DNA of 64,000 nucleotides from Gemmatimonadales bacterium. Its GTDB lineage: Bacteria > Gemmatimonadota > Gemmatimonadetes > Gemmatimonadales > GWC2-71-9. The DNA lies in assembly GCA_025934955.1 (NCBI GenBank), contig JAICWE010000003.1, positions 1 through 64,000 on the forward strand, read 5' to 3'. Each line of letters opens with the position of its first letter. The first letter of the stretch is position 1. This document shows, piece by piece, positions 10,846-22,523 of this stretch. Both the position numbers and the translations under genes were made by a program. The notes under the pieces were generated by a model. The model saw nothing but the letters and a program-made list of their open reading frames with translations. It did no database searches and was not told the origin of the DNA.

Positions 10846-12296
<1,451 letters not shown>

Positions 12297-12300
<4 letters not shown>

Positions 12301-14564
12301 GCCCGAAAGGTAGCCGGAACCTCCAGATCGAGGTCCTCCCGCTCCAGCTCGCGCACGGCCGGGTCGCTCCGACTCACCGACGCAGGAACCTCGCGCCAGC
12401 CGGCCAGCTCGAGCACGTCGGCGGTGAGGCGGTTCACCGCGTCGGTCTCGGCCCCGCCGCCGGCGGTGCCGGCGGCGAGGTCGAGCCAGGTCAGCGCCTC
12501 CTCGAAGGCGTAGCGCTGAAGCGCCGCGGTGCTGGCCCGCACGGCCCAGCGATGGGCCAGCGCGCGCTCGCCGCCGAGTCGCGCGTGCCGGGCGATGTCG
12601 CCGGCGATCTCGTCGCCCTCGCCGCTCTGCTCGGCGCCGAGCGCCAGCGCCAGGCCGATCACCCGATGCACCTCGCGCCGGCGCGAGTAGGTCAGCGCGT
12701 CGCGCACCACGCGCGCGATCATCGGGTGGGCGCAGCGGTACACGCCATCCTCATCCAGCACCAGGCGCCGCTCCAGCAGCGCGTCGCACAGCGCCGCGGC
12801 GTGCAGGCGCGAGATGCCGTGGGCATGGGAGAGCGTCTCGGTGGTGCAGCCGCTGCCGGCGAGGGCGACGGTGATGAGCAGCTCCCGGAGTTGCGGCGGC
12901 AGCCGCTCGACCCGCTCGGCGATGGCGTCGTGCACCGTCGGCGGGAGCGGAAGCTGCTGCGCGCCCTCGGAGGACGCGGGCGTGGTCCACTCGCGGGTCT
13001 CTTCCTTCACTTCCAGCAGCCCCTGGGCGAAGAGCGTCTTCAACAGCTCCACGATGTAGAACGGATTCCCGCGGGTGACCTGGTGAATCCGGGCCGCGAA
13101 GCGGCGGCACGAGGCGGGGTTCGACAGGCGGCCCATCTCGCGGAGCATCTGCCCCACGTCCTCCTCGCTGAGCGCGCCGAGCGGGACGACGGCGGCCTGC
13201 GACTTGGCGCGGAGCACGCGCGCGAGCCGGGCCGCGGGGGCGTCGTGCTCCAGCTCGCCGAGGGTGACGGTGGCGACCCAGAGCACCGGCTCCCGCGCGA
13301 GGCGGCGGACCAGGAAATGGAGCAGGTTGCAGCTGTCGCCGTCGGACCAGTGGAGGTCGTCGAGCACCACGAGCACAGGCCGCTCGGCCACGAGCGCGAG
13401 GATGGCCTGCGCCGCCGCCTCGAAGAGGCGCCAGCCGTCGGCGGGGTCAGCGGGCGGACGCGGTTCGGCCAGGTGCGGGAAGCGCTCGCGCAGCTCGGGC
13501 ACGAGGCGCGAGAGCTCGCTGAGCCACTGCGGATCGGTGCCGGCGAGCCCGGGGGCGGCGAGGCCGCCGCGCAGCACCTCGATGAGCGGCCCGTAGGGTA
13601 CGCCGGCGCGGGCGTCGTACGCGTGACCACGGAGCGCGATGCCGCCGTTGGCCACCGTCCAGCGGAGGAACTCGTCGGCGAGGCGGGTCTTGCCCACGCC
13701 GGGCTCCCCCTCCAGCAGTACTATGCGGCTGTCGCCGCGGCGCACGTCCTTCCAGGCGCCGCGCAGCGCCTGCCACTCGGCGTCGCGACCGATGAGGCTC
13801 GCCTCGAAGGTGGGGGCGCGGGCGTACCACTCGTCGCTGATCGGCCGCGCCACCTGCGCGCTGTTGTCGCTCTCGATCCGCTGCACCAGCTGCGCGAGCG
13901 CGCGGCTCGGCTCGGCGTCGGCTTCGGCGGCGAGCTGGCGGCGCACGTCGGCGGCGCGGGCCAGCGCGCGGTTGCGGTCGCCCGCCAGGTAGAGCGCTTC
14001 GACCGCGAGGCGCGCCGCTTCGTCGGAGTAGGGCTCGGCGGCAAGCCACCGTTCGGCCCACGCCGCCGCCTCGCGCCAGCGCCACTGCCCCATCGCCTCG
14101 CGGGCGAGCGCGGCCAGCACCTGCTCGTAGCGGCGCAGGAGATCGCGCCGCATGGCGGCGGCCCACTCGTCGAAGGCGGGTGCGTGGCGGATGCCGAAGC
14201 CGGCGAGGAACCGCGGCACGTCGTACTGGGCGGCGGTGCGGGGCTCGTGGTCGGTGGCCTGGATGAAGTCGAGGGCGTCGCACCGGACCTCGCGGAGCGC
14301 GACGCTGCCCCGGCTGATCTCGAGCGCCTCGCCGAGATTTTCACGCAGATGGGCGAGGGCCTGGCGGAGCGACGTGCGGGCAGCGGTGTCGGGGTGATCG
14401 CCCCAGAGGAGATCGGCCAGCTCCTCGCGGGAATGCGGTCCCGGCACCAGCGCCAGCACGGCGAGCAACGCCAAGCTCTTGGCCGGCAGCGCGAGGCTGC
14501 GGCCAGGCCCGGCGGCGAGCTGCGCCGACGGTGGGCCGAAGAGCGTCAGGATGACGTCGGCCAT
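12297..14564 (-). CDS. BTAD-type (SARP-like) transcriptional regulator with AAA ATPase domain
   Basis: N-term winged helix + bacterial transcriptional activation domain (SREELADLLWGDHPDTAARTSLRQALAHLRENLG), GEPGVGKTRLADEFL Walker A; 4-bp overlap with hslU start. Confidence 0.88.
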
Positions 14565-14633: not shown

Positions 14634-14653
14634 TCTTTCACGCTTCTTTCACG
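14634..14653. promoter_or_regulatory. Candidate SARP/BTAD operator: direct repeat TCTTTCACG-CT-TCTTTCACG (11-bp period)
   Basis: Perfect 9-bp direct repeat (14634-14642, 14645-14653) in the divergent intergenic region between the BTAD regulator and the first peptide gene. Confidence 0.5.
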
Positions 14654-14723
14654 GGCCCGGTGCAGCTTGCCTCTCGCGATGCGGCGATGGCCGCACGGCC
14701 CATCCACCCAGCAGGAGGTACCT

Positions 14724-14879
14724 ATGAACTCCCCGAAGAGCCAGTTCCGGATCCAGCTGACCGACGAGCAGAAGAGCCAGGTGCGCAACGCGACGGGCAA
14801 GAACGCGGAAGCGATCGAGCTGAGCGTCGAGGAGCTCGAAGAGCGTATCGCCCCGGGCAAGGTGACCCCGGGCAACTGA
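14724..14879 (+). CDS. Small peptide 1 (51 aa) MNSPKSQFRIQLTDEQKSQVRNATGKNAEAIELSVEELEERIAPGKVTPGN
   Basis: AGGAGGT Shine-Dalgarno at 14713-14719; paralogous to the next small ORF with conserved VEELEERIAP. Confidence 0.85.
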   Translation: MNSPKSQFRIQLTDEQKSQVRNATGKNAEAIELSVEELEERIAPGKVTPGN

Positions 14880-14893
14880 TCCAGCGGACCCGC

Positions 14894-14923
14894 GCGCCGG
14901 CCGATTATCTTTTCGGCCGGCGC
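14894..14923 (+). other. Intergenic hairpin between the two peptide genes (10-bp perfect stem, 10-nt loop)
   Basis: GCGCCGGCCG (14894-14903) / CGGCCGGCGC (14914-14923). Confidence 0.6.
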
Positions 14924-14957
14924 ACGCAGGATCTCCCATCAGAGCACGGAGCCACAG

Positions 14958-15095
14958 ATGAGCGAGTTCAAGAGCAGCACCCCGAGCAAGACCGACGATC
15001 AGAAGAAGCCGGTGCGCGGCACGACGAAGGACGGCCAGCCGGTGGAGCTCGGCGTCGAGGAGCTGGAAGAGCGTATCGCGCCGATGAAGATCTAA
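14958..15095 (+). CDS. Small peptide 2 (45 aa) MSEFKSSTPSKTDDQKKPVRGTTKDGQPVELGVEELEERIAPMKI
   Basis: GGAG Shine-Dalgarno at 14948-14951; paralogue of peptide 1 sharing TD(E/D)QK..VR..T.K and VEELEERIAP. Confidence 0.85.
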   Translation: MSEFKSSTPSKTDDQKKPVRGTTKDGQPVELGVEELEERIAPMKI

Positions 15096-15148: not shown

Positions 15149-17098
15149 ATGGCCACACCGGTTTCCGCAACTCCTCAGAGCGACGTTCCCGACGAGCTCC
15201 GCGCCGAAGTGGCGCGGCTGCGGCTTTTGCACGCCATGTCGCTCGAGCTCGGCGGCACGCTCGACTTCGACGAACTGCTGCCCCGCGTGTTCGACCGTGT
15301 GCTCCAGGCCCTCGGTGCCGAAGGCGGCTCGCTCTGGATCGCCGACGGCGACGTGCTCCGCTGCCGCCTCGCCGCGGGTGGCTCGGCCAAGCGGCTGGTC
15401 GGCGCCGAGGTCCCGGTCGGCACCGGCTTCGTGGGCGACGTCGCCCGGCGGCAGCGCACCACGATCGTCACCCGGGTCATCGAAGACCCGCGCTACGAGC
15501 CGGCGCTGGAGGAAGCCGAGGAGCTGACTTCCACCGTCATGGCGACGGCGATGGTCACGCAGGGGAAGACGGTCGGCGCCATCCAGGTCACCAACAAGGT
15601 GACCGGCAGTGGCGCCTTCGACGCATCCGACCGCGAGCTGCTGGAGGGGCTCGCCGCCACCGCCGCCGTCGCGCTGCGCAACGCGCAGCTCCACACCACC
15701 GAGCGCCGGGCCCGCGACCTCGAGCTGCTGCTCGAGATCAGCCGCGAGATCACCAGCACGCTGGACCTGAACCGCGTGCTTCGCTCGGTCGTCAACCTCG
15801 CGGCCCGCGCGCTCACGTTCGATCGCGGCGCCGTCGCACTGGTGGACCAGGGCCGCTGGACCGTGCGCGCCGTGGCGGGCCAGGAGACGATCAACCCCAA
15901 GGACCCCGCGCTCGCCGATCTCGCGGTGCGCGCGGCGTGGGCGGCCGGGCACGGGCAGGCGTTCTACCTCGGTGACCGCGACGATCCGGCGAGCGACGCC
16001 GAGCGGCAGTTCGTGAGCATCTTCGGCGAGGACCTCCAGCGCACCGGTGTCGGCAGCGGGCTCTACCTGCCGCTGCGAGACGACGAGGGCGTGCTGGGTC
16101 TCCTGCTGTTCGAGGCGGAGCGGCCCGAGTTCGCGCCCGACTCGGCACGCGAGCTGGCGATGATCCTGGCCAACCAGACGTCGGTGGCCGTGCGGAACGC
16201 GCAGCTCTACGATCGGGTGCCGTTCGTGGATGCCTTCGGCGCGATCGCCGGGCAGAAGCGCGCCTGGCTGGCACTCCCCAAGCAGCGGCGGGTGGCGTAC
16301 GTGGCGGCGGCGGTGGTGGTGATCGCGCTTGCGACGCTGATCCGCTGGCCGCTCCGGGTGAGTGGCGACGACCCGCATTTCCGCGCGCTCGGCCGCGCCG
16401 ACGTGCACACCATCGTACCGGGCGTCATCGCGCAGGTGCTGGTGGACGAAGGCACTCCGGTGGCGCAGGGTGCGCCGCTGGTCCTGCTGCGCGACGCCGA
16501 GCTGCGGGCCGAGCGCGCGGCGGCGGCGGCGGACGTCGAGGCCGCCGTGCGGTCCGCTTCGCTCGCGGCGAGCCGCGGCGCCGCCGGCGACGAGCGGCTG
16601 CAGCAGATCCGCGCCGAGGCACTCCGCGACGAGCTCGCGTTGCTCGACGAGCAGCTGGCCGCCACCGTGATCCGCGCGCCGTCGGCCGGAATCATCCTCA
16701 CGCCGCGCCCGCGCGAACGCTTGGGCGCGCACCTCGACGCCGGCGACCCGGTCCTGGTCGTCGGCCGCGCCGACACACTGCTGCTCGAGTTCGGCATCGC
16801 GCAGAAGGACGTCGCCCGCATCCGGCCGGGCGACGAGGTCCGCCTGCGGGTGGACGCACTGCCGCAGCGCACGTTCGCCGGCGCGGTGAACTCGATCGGC
16901 GTGCTGCCGGTCGCCGGCGACACCGGCATCGCGGTCCGCTTCCCGGTCCGCGCGCTGGTCCCGAACCCCGACGGCCTGCTCCGCCCCGGCATGGCGGCGC
17001 ACGCACGCGTACTCACCGCGCCCGCATCGCTCGCCGGCCGCGTGCTTCGCGACCCGGCGCGGGCGGTCCGCTTGCTCTGGTGGAGACTCTGGTCATGA
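15149..17098 (+). CDS. GAF-GAF-TM-HlyD (membrane fusion/biotinyl-lipoyl-like) protein, 649 aa
   Basis: Two GAF-like regions (FDELLPRVFDRVLQALGAEGGSLWIAD; TLDLNRVLRSVVNLAARALTFDRGAVALVD), TM VAYVAAAVVVIALATLI, then barrel-sandwich region (VHTIVPGVIAQVLVDEGTPVAQGAPLVLLRDAEL). Confidence 0.85.
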   Translation: MATPVSATPQSDVPDELRAEVARLRLLHAMSLELGGTLDFDELLPRVFDRVLQALGAEGGSLWIADGDVLRCRLAAGGSAKRLVGAEVPVGTGFVGDVARRQRTTIVTRVIEDPRYEPALEEAEELTSTVMATAMVTQGKTVGAIQVTNKVTGSGAFDASDRELLEGLAATAAVALRNAQLHTTERRARDLELLLEISREITSTLDLNRVLRSVVNLAARALTFDRGAVALVDQGRWTVRAVAGQETINPKDPALADLAVRAAWAAGHGQAFYLGDRDDPASDAERQFVSIFGEDLQRTGVGSGLYLPLRDDEGVLGLLLFEAERPEFAPDSARELAMILANQTSVAVRNAQLYDRVPFVDAFGAIAGQKRAWLALPKQRRVAYVAAAVVVIALATLIRWPLRVSGDDPHFRALGRADVHTIVPGVIAQVLVDEGTPVAQGAPLVLLRDAELRAERAAAAADVEAAVRSASLAASRGAAGDERLQQIRAEALRDELALLDEQLAATVIRAPSAGIILTPRPRERLGAHLDAGDPVLVVGRADTLLLEFGIAQKDVARIRPGDEVRLRVDALPQRTFAGAVNSIGVLPVAGDTGIAVRFPVRALVPNPDGLLRPGMAAHARVLTAPASLAGRVLRDPARAVRLLWWRLWS

Positions 17099-18111
17099 TC
17101 GCGTCACCGCGCCTTCCGCTCGTCGCCGTGCTCGTCCTGGTCCTGCCCGCGTGCGGCCGGCCCGACGCGGCCGCCCGCACCGACACCGCGCTATCGGAGC
17201 AGACCCGGCACGCCGCGACGCCGAAGCCCGCATCGGATGCAGCCGCCGCTCAGCTGCGGGTGGACACCGCGACCGTCTCGGTGCCGCTCTCGCTGCCGTC
17301 ACAGCTCTATGTGGAGCACGATGCCGTCGTCGCCGCACGATCGTCGGGCACGGTGGACTCGGTGCTGGTGGACGTCGGCATGCCGGTGCGCGCGGGCCAG
17401 CTGCTCGCGTCGCTCGAATCGGTGGATCAGAGCATCGCGCTGGCACAGGCGCGGGAGTCGGCCGACGCCGACCGGCGGCTGGTCGAGCGGATGCGCGCGC
17501 TGGCCGCGACCGGCGGCGCCACGCGGGCCGACTCGGAGCAGGCGGAGCTCCAGTACGCACAGGCCGACCTCGCCCTGCGTAAGGCGCAGCGCGATCTCGA
17601 GCTGACCCGGATCACCGCGCCGTTCGCCGGCGTGGTGAGCGTGCGGCTGGCGCGTCCGCGTCGCCTCGTCGCGCCGGGGGACACGCTCTTCCGGGTGACC
17701 GCGACCGCTCCGCTGCTCGCCGCGGTGCGGGTACCCGAAGCGTCGGCCGAGACGCTGGGACCGGGCTCGCCGGCGCAGGTCGTCGGCATCCAGGGCACCG
17801 CCGTTCGCGGCCGGGTGGTGCGCGCGGCGCCGGCCATCGACGCCGCGAGCGGCACCCGTGAGATGATCGTCGAGGTCGCGTCCGACGCGCGGCTCCGGCC
17901 CGGCGCCAGCGTGACGGTGCGGCTCGGCGGGCAGCAACGGCGGGTGATCAGCATTCCGCGCGACGTCGTATCCGACGGCTACGCGCTCGTCTCGGAGCAC
18001 AACAGCACCGCGCTCCGTCCGGTTGTGCTCGGCGCCGATCTCGGGAATGGCCGGGTCGAGGTGCTGAGCGGCCTTTCCGCCGGCGACCAGCTGGTTCGCC
18101 CGGTCCGATGA
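17095..18111 (+). CDS. HlyD/RND-type efflux adaptor lipoprotein
   Basis: Lipobox LPAC; GTVDSVLVDVGMPVRAGQLLASLESVDQSIALAQA, RITAPFAGVVSVR; ATGA overlap with the preceding gene. Confidence 0.88.
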   Translation: MIASPRLPLVAVLVLVLPACGRPDAAARTDTALSEQTRHAATPKPASDAAAAQLRVDTATVSVPLSLPSQLYVEHDAVVAARSSGTVDSVLVDVGMPVRAGQLLASLESVDQSIALAQARESADADRRLVERMRALAATGGATRADSEQAELQYAQADLALRKAQRDLELTRITAPFAGVVSVRLARPRRLVAPGDTLFRVTATAPLLAAVRVPEASAETLGPGSPAQVVGIQGTAVRGRVVRAAPAIDAASGTREMIVEVASDARLRPGASVTVRLGGQQRRVISIPRDVVSDGYALVSEHNSTALRPVVLGADLGNGRVEVLSGLSAGDQLVRPVR

Positions 18112-20141
18112 CACCGCGGTTCCGCGCCGACCTCGTCGTCGTGGAGCAGGTCTACCGCGGCCAGCCGAGCTACATCGTCAAGGACCCGCTCACCCACAAG
18201 TATTTCCGCTTCCGTCCGGTGGAAGTGATGGTGATGCAGGCGTTCGACGGCACCCGCACGCCGGCGGACGTCGTCACCGCGCTCGCCGCCGAAGGCGTGA
18301 CGCTCACCGTGAAGACCGTCGTCGCCTTTGCCGAGCGGCTGGGGCGGATGGAGCTGCTGGAGCGGACGCTGGCCGAGCGCGCATCGCAGCTGGTCGAGCG
18401 CAACCGTGCCGCGCGCCAGCGCCGGCTCCGACCCGGCGGCGGGGACATCCTGCGCATCCGCTGGTCGGTGGGTGATCCCGACAAGATGCTCACCGCGCTC
18501 ATGCCCCGGTTCCGCTGGTGCTTCACGCCCGGTTTCGTGGTGGCGAGCGCGGTGTGCTTCGCCGTCTACTTCCTGGTGGTCGGGACCCACTGGTCGGCGT
18601 TCGGCGCGGACGTCGCGGCGCTCTACTCGCCAGCGCACATCACACTCGCGAACTTCGCGGTGCTGTGGTTGACGTCGTGCACCATCATCGCCATCCACGA
18701 GCTGGGACACGGCTTCGCCTGCAAGTACTTCGGCGGACAGGTGCACGAGATCGGCGCCATGTTGATCTACTTCCAGCCGGCCTTCTTCTGCAACGTCAAC
18801 GACGCATGGACCTTCCCCGAGCGGCGGGCGCGCCTCTGGGTCACCGCGGCGGGCGGGTGGATCCAGTTCGTCATCGCGGGCATCGCGGCGGTGGTCTGGT
18901 GGGCGGCGACGCCGGGCACGCTCGTCGCCGAGGTCGCACTCGCAGCGGTGCTGATCGGCGGCATCACGACGGTGGTCGCCAACCTCAACCCGCTGCTCCC
19001 GCTCGACGGCTACTACGCGCTGAGCGACGTGCTCGAGATCCCGAATCTGCGGCAGCGCGCGCTGGCGCAGGTCGGTTGGCTGGTGCGCTCACGGCTGCTC
19101 GGCCGCGAGGTGCCCCGCCCGCCCGCGGAGCCGCGCGAGGTGCGGGTGCTGGTGGTGTACGGCGCGCTGGTCGCGCTCTATCTGTTCGCGGTGATCGTGG
19201 TGGTGAGCAGCGTGCTGTTCGGCTGGGCGTCGCGCGCGCTCGGCGCGGTCGGCGTGCTGCTGGCCGCCGCGATCATCTTCCTGGTGCTGCGCGAGCGGGT
19301 GCGGACCTGGACCTCGGAGATCGTCCTCGCGGTTCGCGCACGCATCGCCGCCGTGGGCACTCCGGGCCGGCGGAAGCTCGCGGGCGCGGGCCTGGCGCTG
19401 ATCATTCTCGGCGCGGTGATCCCGTGGTCCATCACGGTGGACGGGACGTTCCGCGTGCTGCCGCGCGACGAGTACGGGTTGACCGCGCCGGACAGCGCCG
19501 TGGTCTCGGCGGTGCTGGCGCGCGAAGGCAGTGTGGTGCCCGCCGGCGCGCCGGTGCTTCGGCTGGCCGACTTCGATCTGGCCGGCCGCCGGCTCACGGC
19601 GCTGCGCGCGGCCGACTCGCTGGCGCGCGAGGAAGCGGCCGCGCGCGCCCGCGGCGCATCGGGTGAGGCGGAGCGGCTCGCGAGCGAGCGCGATGCGGCG
19701 GACGCGGCGCGTACCGCGCTGGACGTGGCGGCGGCGTCACTGGTGCTGCGCGCGCCGGCGGGGGGCATCGTGCTCACGCCGCTGGTCGACACATTGCTCG
19801 GACGGAGCGTCGTCCCCGGTCAGACGCTGGTTCGGGTGGGCGATCCCGACGCGCTCGAGCTGCGGCTCAGTCTCGCCGGAGCCGGCACCACGCTGGTGCG
19901 GAGCGGCCAACCGGTGCGCCTCGTCTCGCTGGCTGACGCGCGCGGAGCGGCGAGCCGCGTCATCGCCGTGGCCTCGGCGGCCGGCGGCGGCGCGGTCGCC
20001 GCGCGCGCCGACGTCCCGGCGAACCGCCACTGGCGCCTCGGCACGACCGGCGTCGCGCGCGTCGTGGTGCGGCGGACCAACCTCTGGGGCGGAGCCTTCT
20101 GGGGCATTCGCCGACTCGTGCGGAGCGACATCCTGCTGTAG
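18108..20141 (+). CDS. PqqD-like N-term domain + M50 site-2 protease + HlyD-like C-term, 677 aa
   Basis: HELGH zinc motif and NLNPLLPLDGYYALSD; N-term YRFRPVEVMVMQAFDGTRTPADVVTAL-like PqqD pattern (FRFRPVEVMVMQAFDGTRT); multiple TMs; C-term barrel sandwich; ATGA overlap with preceding gene. Confidence 0.88.
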   Translation: MTPRFRADLVVVEQVYRGQPSYIVKDPLTHKYFRFRPVEVMVMQAFDGTRTPADVVTALAAEGVTLTVKTVVAFAERLGRMELLERTLAERASQLVERNRAARQRRLRPGGGDILRIRWSVGDPDKMLTALMPRFRWCFTPGFVVASAVCFAVYFLVVGTHWSAFGADVAALYSPAHITLANFAVLWLTSCTIIAIHELGHGFACKYFGGQVHEIGAMLIYFQPAFFCNVNDAWTFPERRARLWVTAAGGWIQFVIAGIAAVVWWAATPGTLVAEVALAAVLIGGITTVVANLNPLLPLDGYYALSDVLEIPNLRQRALAQVGWLVRSRLLGREVPRPPAEPREVRVLVVYGALVALYLFAVIVVVSSVLFGWASRALGAVGVLLAAAIIFLVLRERVRTWTSEIVLAVRARIAAVGTPGRRKLAGAGLALIILGAVIPWSITVDGTFRVLPRDEYGLTAPDSAVVSAVLAREGSVVPAGAPVLRLADFDLAGRRLTALRAADSLAREEAAARARGASGEAERLASERDAADAARTALDVAAASLVLRAPAGGIVLTPLVDTLLGRSVVPGQTLVRVGDPDALELRLSLAGAGTTLVRSGQPVRLVSLADARGAASRVIAVASAAGGGAVAARADVPANRHWRLGTTGVARVVVRRTNLWGGAFWGIRRLVRSDILL

Positions 20142-20172: not shown

Positions 20173-21024
20173 ATGGCCCGCGATTTCCTCGCTCTCGTCC
20201 AGCAACAGCTTGGCGCACGCTACCGTCTCGAGCGCGAGATCGGCCGCGGCGGCGGCGCACGCGTCTTCCTCGCTACGGCGCCGGACGGCGCGCGCGTCGC
20301 GCTCAAGGTGCTGCTGCCGGAGCTGCTCGCCGGCACCGCGGCCGAGCGGTTCCTGCGGGAGATCCGGCTGGCTCGCGAACTCGATCACCCACGGATCGCG
20401 CGCATCCTCGACGCCGGCGAAGACGGCTGGGTCGTCTTCTACGCGATGACCTTTGCCGATGGACCGACCCTCCGGAGCTATCTCGACACCCGCGGCGCGC
20501 TGCCATCGGCGGAGCTGGCCCGCGTGGCCGACGACCTGCTCGACGCGCTCGGTTACGCGCACGGCCGCGGCATCATCCATCGCGACGTGAAGCCGGAGAA
20601 CATCGTGCTGGCATCGGGAGGAGCGGTACTGCTTGACTTCGGCATCGCGCGGGCGATCGAGCAATCGGCGGGCGACCGCCTGACCGCGACGGGGATGACG
20701 GTGGGCACGGCGGCATACATGAGCCCGGAGCAGATTCGCGGCGGCGCGGTGGACCACCGCAGCGATGTCTACGCGATGGGTTGCCTGCTCCATGAGTGCG
20801 CCAGCGGCACGCCGCCGTTTCACCACTCCAACGAGGCGGTCGTGCTGCGGCAGCATCTGCTCGATGCCCCGCCACAGCTGCGGAGCGTCTGCCCCGATGT
20901 CTCGCAGGAGATGGCGGCGGTCGTGGAGCGCGCGCTGGCCAAGAAGCCGGAGGAGCGCTGGCCGTCGGCGGACGCGATGCGCGCCGCGCTCGGCGCTACG
21001 CCGCCGGCAGCTCGAGGACCGTGA
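20173..21024 (+). CDS. Ser/Thr protein kinase (catalytic domain only), 283 aa
   Basis: [38 protein letters not shown]; ends without TM; convergent 29-bp overlap with hslV. Confidence 0.88.
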
Positions 21025-21541
21025 TGTTGCGGTTGGTGAAGACGCAGATGTCGGCGGCGATCTCGAGCGAGCGTTGTACGATGTCGCGCGCGCTCTTGCC
21101 CGGCTCCGCGAGCAGCGCGCGCGCCGCCGCCAGCGCGTAGTTGCCGCCGGAACCGACGGCCACGATGCCGTCGTCCGGCTCGATCAGCTCGCCCGACCCG
21201 CTGAGCAGGAAGCTGTGCTGCTGGTCGGTGACCACGAGCAGCGCCTCCAGCCGACGGAGCACCCGGTCGCTGCGCCAGTCCTTCGCCAGCTCGACGGCGG
21301 CACGCGGCAGATTGCCCGGGTATCGGTCCAGCTTCTCCTCGAACTTCTCGTAGAGCGTCAGCGCGTCCGCGACGGAACCGGCGAAACCGGCGAGCACCTT
21401 GCCGTTCTTGAGGGCGCGTACCTTGACCGAGTGCGCCTTCATCACGGTCTCGCCGATGCTCACCTGCCCGTCTCCGCCGAGCGCCACCCGCCCGTCCTTC
21501 CGCACGCAGAGAATCGTGGTGCCGTGGAACGTCATGCTCAC
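20996..21541 (-). CDS. hslV: HslV peptidase subunit of HslVU protease
   Basis: [52 protein letters not shown]. Confidence 0.96.
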
Positions 21542-21599
21542 CCTCGGGGTGTTGAGCGGACAGGGAGACGTCGCGGCTGCGCGGCGTGCGCGCGGGCCA

Positions 21600-22523
21600 C
21601 TACGCCCGCGGGTGCGCCTGCTGGTACACCTTCTTCAGGCGCTCGACGCTGGTATGAGTATACACCTGGGTCGTGCTCAGGCTCGCGTGCCCCAGGAGTT
21701 CCTGCACCGCGCGGAGATCGGCGCCGGCGTCGAGCATGTGGGTCGCGAATGTGTGACGGAGCGAGTGCACCCGGAGCCCGTCGCCCGCCACCGCGTCGAA
21801 CATCCGGTGAATCCGCTGCTGCACCGCGCGCGGCGTGATCCGCCGTCCCTGCCGACTCACGAACATCGCCCGCCGGTCGCCGCCACGCTGCGCCACCAGC
21901 GGCCCACGCACCGCCAGATAGTTCCGCAGCGCGAGCACCGCGCGCGATCCGACCGGCACGATCCGCTCCTTCCGGCCTTTGCCGCGCACCTTGGCCTGGT
22001 CGGAGAGGAGATCCACGTCGGCGAGGTTGAGGCCCGCGAGTTCGGAGAGCCGCATGCCGGTGGAGTAGAACAGCTCCAGCATTGCGAGGTCGCGCCGGTC
22101 GCCGAAGTCGCCGCTCGTCGCCCGCGCCTCCGCCCAGGCAAAGAGCTGCTCGGTCTGCTGCCGGTCCATGTACGTGGGCAAGCGTTTGCCGAGCTTCGGC
22201 AGCCGGGTGGCGCGCGCCACCGTATTGGCGACGCCGTGATGCTCCTGGAGAAACCGATAGAGACTCCGCACCGCGGACAGCGCGCGCGCCGCCGACCGCT
22301 TCGCCAGCCCGCGGCGCTGCAGCTCGCCGAGAAAGCCGCGGAGCCCGAGCCGGTCCACGCTCGCCCACTCCCACGCGGCGCGCCCGCCATAGTGCCGGTC
22401 GCAAAAATCGAGGAACGCCTGGAGGTCGCGCCGGTAGGCGTTGACCGTATGCGGCGACTGCTGCTTCTCCTTCTCGAGATGCAGCAGGAACTCCTCTACC
22501 AGCGGATGCGGCACGGTGTCCAA
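21600..22523 (-). CDS. xerC: Tyrosine recombinase XerC/XerD family
   Basis: [55 protein letters not shown]; context trmFO-xerC-hslV. Confidence 0.92.

Follow-up and report, generated by a model that had tools for sequence, protein, structure and literature searches.

What do two genes make when almost all of each encoded peptide is a conserved block and only a handful of residues follows it? The question is raised by a pair of very small open reading frames in the window, the 64,000-nucleotide stretch of Gemmatimonadales DNA analysed here. A sequence-only reading had described them as paralogous micropeptides and suggested signals, tags or scaffolds as their possible roles. We addressed it through the peptides and their relatives, the genes that travel with them and their control region.

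A peptide family with a conserved body and a variable tail

Both open reading frames proved real, with the limits first given for them and good ribosome-binding sites. Peptide 1 (14724..14879, forward strand, 51 aa), with AGGAGG at 14713..14718 (forward strand), consists of a putative leader, MNSP...IELSVEELEERIAP (14724-14855), the tail GKVTPGN (14856-14876) and a stop. Peptide 2 (14958..15095, forward strand, 45 aa), whose start at 14958 has a GGAG ribosome-binding site ahead of it, has a leader ending VELGVEELEERIAP (14958-15083), the tail MKI (15084-15092) and a stop. As had been remarked, Cys is absent from both. Searched against the whole genome, the paralogues retrieve each other at E=1.9e-6, and no third credible copy turned up there. 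Between them lies a very stable hairpin (14894..14923, forward strand; 11-bp stem, z = -3.4), with no terminator-like U-tract and no terminator called there by the scan. It is a possible attenuator or processing site, and could set the amount of peptide 1 relative to peptide 2 or to the protease operon.

A family profile built from seven members and scanned over 395 Gemmatimonadota genomes found the family in 39 of them, two or more tandem copies being common, so that the homologues in related genomes on which the sequence-only reading depended do exist. Against this HMM, peptide 1 scores 4.9e-28 and peptide 2 3.3e-22. Across 67 distinct members the body follows the consensus (V/I)RIxLTxEQKxxVRxATGKDAEAIELxVEELEERIAP, and the leader, the first ~42-44 residues, ends ELEERIAP. 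In this last block the E, L and E of ELE are kept in 65-66 of the 67 members, and R/K and the final P in all 67. Peptide 2 belongs to a subclass in which the N-terminal half has drifted and the LELGVEELEERIAP end is kept, and its MKI tail recurs in another genome (G008, locus L046).

Selection on the peptide had been proposed from the 30 nucleotides that the two genes share (14826-14855 versus 15054-15083), where the only two differences, CTC/CTG and GCC/GCG, are indeed synonymous. As an argument from a single pair of paralogues this is weak, pS being 0.34 and pN 0.27 over the whole body, but the conclusion itself holds: body dN/dS is mostly 0.04-0.3 in close pairs, from different genomes or paralogous, and the cross-genome pairs show strong purifying selection on the body. 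The tails behave otherwise, with 12% identity (ungapped) against 66% for the bodies of the same pairs. They are 3-27 residues long and basic (mean charge +1.1) after an acidic body. A conserved body followed by a variable, basic tail beyond the proline amounts to a partition into leader and core. The sequence-only reading, which placed the block at the extreme C-terminus, was right about its leader-like character, but every member carries a tail after it. What was called "essentially no core" is better described as a very short, hypervariable core, since relatives with the same leader end have cores of 12-50 residues.

In six members (L065, L070, L075-L078), mostly orphan genes, the leaders have otherwise diverged and the tails read R(L/V)xxNHNE(T/P), with the motif (S/A/G)NHNE(T/P), which we could not assign to any known family. 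In most pairs the similarity between these tails exceeds that between the leaders, and the tail can therefore be the selected product. Two further members, in two genomes (L079 8911 and L080 8601), share a longer conserved tail, EHLHGLWVxLGLDD; they are orphan relatives near a conserved gene block. Several other family peptides likewise lie away from any protease gene. No peptide matches occurred in plasmids, searches of literature text for VEELEERIAP, LEERIAP and NHNET returned nothing relevant, and an Rfam scan gave nothing of note.

A conserved cassette with a putative leader-reading protease

Downstream of the peptides, all on the forward strand, the window encodes a GAF-GAF-HlyD membrane-fusion-type protein (15149..17098, 649 aa), an HlyD/RND periplasmic adaptor (17080..18111, 343 aa), a metalloprotease (18108..20141, 677 aa) and a Ser/Thr protein kinase (20173..21024, 283 aa), which closes the cassette and adjoins it in several relatives too. 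The order of a divergent SARP regulator, peptide(s), GAF-HlyD, HlyD and M50 recurs in most loci. The window cassette lies between an hslU-like gene (10849-12300) and apparent hslV and xerC genes (20996-22523; these two named by eye from sequence), a position that looks like an insertion into an xerC-hslV-hslU block; in genome G330 (L050) the cassette likewise has genes of this hslU cluster next to it.

The protease carries the M50 motifs HELGH (residues 197-201) and NPLLPLDG (294-301), both kept in 12 homologues, and a C-terminal barrel-sandwich adaptor that Foldseek, run on the whole model, matched to adaptors of the MexA/MacA type. As that search matched the HlyD part only, residues 1-89 (18108-18374) were modelled separately. 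They gave three strands and three helices at pLDDT 91.6. Every one of the nine top-ranked PDB structures matching this model is an RRE protein, first among them TbiB1 with a lasso leader peptide (E=3e-4). An RRE fold is thus predicted for this N-terminal segment. Searches by sequence agree with this: PqqD gives a weak match in 5 of the 12 homologues, and PaaA and PqqD chains are among the top, though insignificant, matches. Against the daptide metalloprotease model NF041824 the window protease scores E=1.9e-61, under the curated equivalog cut-off (210 vs 300 bits), and is by this match a homologue of the daptide protease MpaP.

Peptide and protease are strongly associated. An independent search with an M50 profile found the RRE-M50 protein in 34 of the 395 genomes, the peptide being present in 28 of these as well (Fisher p 3e-28). 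This association rests on two independent genome searches; the synteny count comes from loci mostly fetched around peptides. Among the six exceptions, one is a truncated contig (G091) and another, G125, has the full GAF-HlyD/HlyD/M50 set without a recognisable peptide. The other four (G111, G232, G282 and G348) encode beside the protease a short-leader peptide of the type LExLEERIAx/LExLEQRIAP.

These short-leader peptides, one of which also occurs in G364, define a second set of M50 clusters, in which a 17-aa leader, MKHLNPxLEKLEERIAP or a close variant, stands ahead of longer cores, 27-44 residues in length, in which Gly, Ser, His, Asp or Cys abound. The peptides (L121 6935, L129 10161, L130 7077 and 8640, L131 7885, L132 10295) are RiPP-like and lie beside a divergent RRE-M50-HlyD gene. 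In L121, L129 and L131 a ~320-aa protein follows, for which Pfam gave no match and NCBIfam none that is credible.

A SARP-type switch

Divergent from the peptides, on the reverse strand, lies the gene for a large, AfsR-like SARP regulator (12297..14564, 755 aa) with Trans_reg_C, BTAD and AAA_16 ATPase domains. Upstream of peptide 1 we found the direct repeat TTCACG-N5-TTCACG with an 11-bp period (14637..14653, forward strand), a putative SARP-type activator site, and a -10 box, CAGCTT (14663..14668, forward strand), 9 nt past the second repeat. In 889 kb of fetched loci every one of the 35 TTCAC[GA]-N5-TTCAC[GA] repeats is followed 65-180 nt downstream, on the same strand, by a family peptide, and among these are peptides remote from any protease gene. 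With sites anchored on the repeats alone, the -10 box (NANNNT) emerges as A at +27 and T at +31, each position being kept in 30 of 32 sites. Background matches to the repeat pattern amount to ~0.6 per genome, so that it marks peptides only together with context; the window's own genome holds a second match (C105) that no recognisable peptide follows. Scans for sigma-70 promoters and terminators gave nothing of note.

SARP-dependent promoters have direct repeats at 11 or 22 bp, the last of them 8 bp from the -10 box (PMC10936776). Repeats of 11 bp, a comparable -10 spacing and a SARP gene are all present here, and the peptide promoters have SARP architecture. A close parallel is with the large SARPs of the AfsR type, which share the Trans_reg_C, BTAD and ATPase domains, the 11-bp repeats ~8 bp from the -10 box and a nearby kinase, AfsR itself being phosphorylated by Ser/Thr kinases (PMC10936776). 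The window SARP differs from AfsR in its company of mini-peptide and protease genes and in its occurrence in Gemmatimonadota.

A proposed route from precursor to tail

The window protease led by homology to two annotated Streptomyces daptide clusters, whose leaders (LELGLQELEVMEAP) end LELGLQELEV(M/L)EAP and match the family motif with the proline in register; the leader end of one family member, ALELGVQELEERIAP (G049), invites comparison. With a 15-column family matrix all eight daptides score above every one of 2000 shuffles (0/2000), the Pro again in register. An hhalign comparison of the family with daptides gives the same register at E=0.007, but a probability of only 5%. Between ELEERIAP and the daptide ELExMEAP the residues E, L, E, A and P are shared, and the daptide M at -4 is replaced by R/K in 67 of 67 members. 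As the daptide motif aligns with Pro in register, the peptides are likely cut directly after IAP.

We propose, with a probability of roughly 0.7, that the two peptides are precursors consisting almost wholly of leader, which the RRE-M50 protease cuts after IAP, so that the tail is released or exported. The AfsR-like SARP would switch the peptides on from the direct-repeat operator; the RRE of the M50 intramembrane metalloprotease would bind the LELxVEELEERIAP end of the leader; the protease would cut after IAP, the position corresponding to the MEAP end of daptide leaders; and the short tail (GKVTPGN or MKI) would be released and taken through the envelope by the HlyD-type adaptors that the cassette encodes, including the one fused to the protease. 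The suggestion that the conserved block might be a sorting signal was in this respect not far off. Our search covered the conserved cassette and found no modifying enzyme there; the tail may leave unmodified, or an enzyme encoded elsewhere may act on it in trans. Only the finding of a modification would make the system a RiPP, in the wide sense of the term. The tail most likely serves as a signal or as a small bioactive peptide. Signalling is suggested by the short hypervariable products, the multiple paralogues and the neighbouring STAND-type regulator; we put it forward tentatively, as the weakest step of the proposal, the main alternative being a role as an antimicrobial or another small bioactive peptide. 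Several observations speak against the proposal: many tails, at a mere 3-6 residues and without apparent conservation, could equally be useless remnants, the cassette contains no ABC ATPase or TolC, the hhalign probability against daptides is low and their M at -4 is R/K here, several peptides are orphans, and G125 has no recognisable peptide.

Alternatively, the conserved body might itself be the product and dock, as a small adaptor, inhibitor or activator, on the RRE-M50-HlyD complex or on the regulator, with a dispensable tail. The purifying selection on the body would suit such a role, as would the near-random sequence of most tails, 3-8 residues long. Yet the last residues of the body resemble the daptide leader motif, proline included, the same end precedes both the long, partly conserved cores of the sister clusters and the conserved NHNET tails, and the presence of many divergent paralogues in a genome is more readily explained for substrates than for a subunit. 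We consider this reading unlikely.

The M50 proteases TglG and TmoG free products from the C-terminus of scaffold peptides (PMC10885120), and one could imagine a pearlin-like scaffold here, with a modified residue built on the C-terminus and then clipped off by the M50 protease. The very short tails agree with this precedent, but the cassette lacks a LanB-like aminoacyl-tRNA ligase or tailoring enzyme and the tails vary widely in length and end residue, which makes such a scaffold improbable.

The comparison with daptides (PMC10036551) also bears on whether the peptides are true daptides whose tailoring genes were lost or never adjacent. Common to both are a homologous RRE-M50 protease and several tandem precursors per cluster, the leaders also appearing to share the end LELGxQELExxxAP with its terminal Pro, and it is the MpaP homology and the leader motif that would favour this identity. 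The family differs in its tiny polar or basic tails in place of hydrophobic cores, HlyD adaptors in place of an ABC transporter, SARP control and occurrence in Gemmatimonadota. We looked for MpaB/C/D/M (oxidative decarboxylase, aminotransferase, methyltransferase) in the cassette and its flanks (10.8-22.5 kb) and found none, and the C-terminal Thr that is invariant in daptides occurs in 1 of 67 tails; the protease, moreover, scores below the daptide cut-off. Because tailoring genes and C-terminal Thr were tested for and are absent, the cassette would seem to work like a daptide leader/protease pair without being a daptide, and true daptides are very improbable.

Least probable of all are leaders of the Nif11 or class II lanthipeptide type, a likeness that the sequence-only reading drew from the generic EELE of such leader ends, with no tool result in its support, even as it rightly held that these are not classical lanthipeptide precursors: no family model matches, there is no Gly-Gly site and no Cys, and no lanthionine synthetase (LanM) lies in the cassette or nearby. 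The better comparison is with the daptide leader (ELExMEAP) and its RRE-M50 protease.

Related systems and significance

Epipeptide clusters contain a radical SAM epimerase, and there is none in the window cassette. We know of no RRE-HlyD fusion among their M50 proteases (EpeP/YydH-LiaK), to which the window protease gives a weaker match (E=4e-10). What the two would have in common is an M50 metalloprotease that matures a small peptide, for which export has been proposed in epipeptides (PMC10885120).

Distant homologues of the window protease occur on alphaproteobacterial plasmids, in operons with further HlyD adaptors and often a TolC or SecA-like gene, adjoining giant proteins annotated as LEPR-XLL or bearing a LEPR-like motif near the N-terminus. 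The LEPR-XLL systems (NF012209) resemble the window in placing a homologous PqqD/RRE-M50-HlyD protease and HlyD adaptors beside a protein with an N-terminal LExR motif; they differ in that the substrates would be giant (12-39 kb genes) and in the frequent TolC or SecA-like genes. The LEPR-XLL model gives no match up to E=1. We also considered the LEPR-XLL motif as a homologue of the family motif and rejected it: LExR is shared, but the similarity is insignificant in a reverse-direction PSSM comparison. LEPR-XLL is therefore offered as a parallel of genomic context, not of homology.

The same peptides, protease and control switch are found repeatedly in Gemmatimonadota, and the system has the look of a new relative of known RiPP systems. 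More speculatively, and with more doubt than confidence, RRE-M50-HlyD may be a secretion machine of general use that reads leaders. Its substrates would then extend from the three-residue peptides seen here, by way of small RiPP cores, to giant LEPR-XLL proteins, and its Gemmatimonadota branch would, under SARP control, emit families of hypervariable ultra-short peptide signals. A peptide family, its cognate protease and its operator are hereby defined in a phylum for which few natural-product systems have been characterised, with three independent search handles, the leader motif, the RRE-M50-HlyD architecture and the TTCACG repeat. The daptide leader/protease pair is also tied to RRE-M50-HlyD operons beside giant LEPR-XLL proteins, and the plasmid context suggests a testable role for the LEPR-XLL motif in export or processing. 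That the member genome G039 consists of one complete contig (4.7 Mb) hints at a cultured strain, in which the product could be sought directly.

On the plasmids, RRE-M50-HlyD operons adjoin giant genes of 12-39 kb in L113, L116, L135-L137 and L140, LEPR-XLL where annotated. In L114 (9096-11102) a short SecA-like protein, matched by SecA models, directly follows the RRE-M50-HlyD gene, and a similar arrangement occurs in L136.
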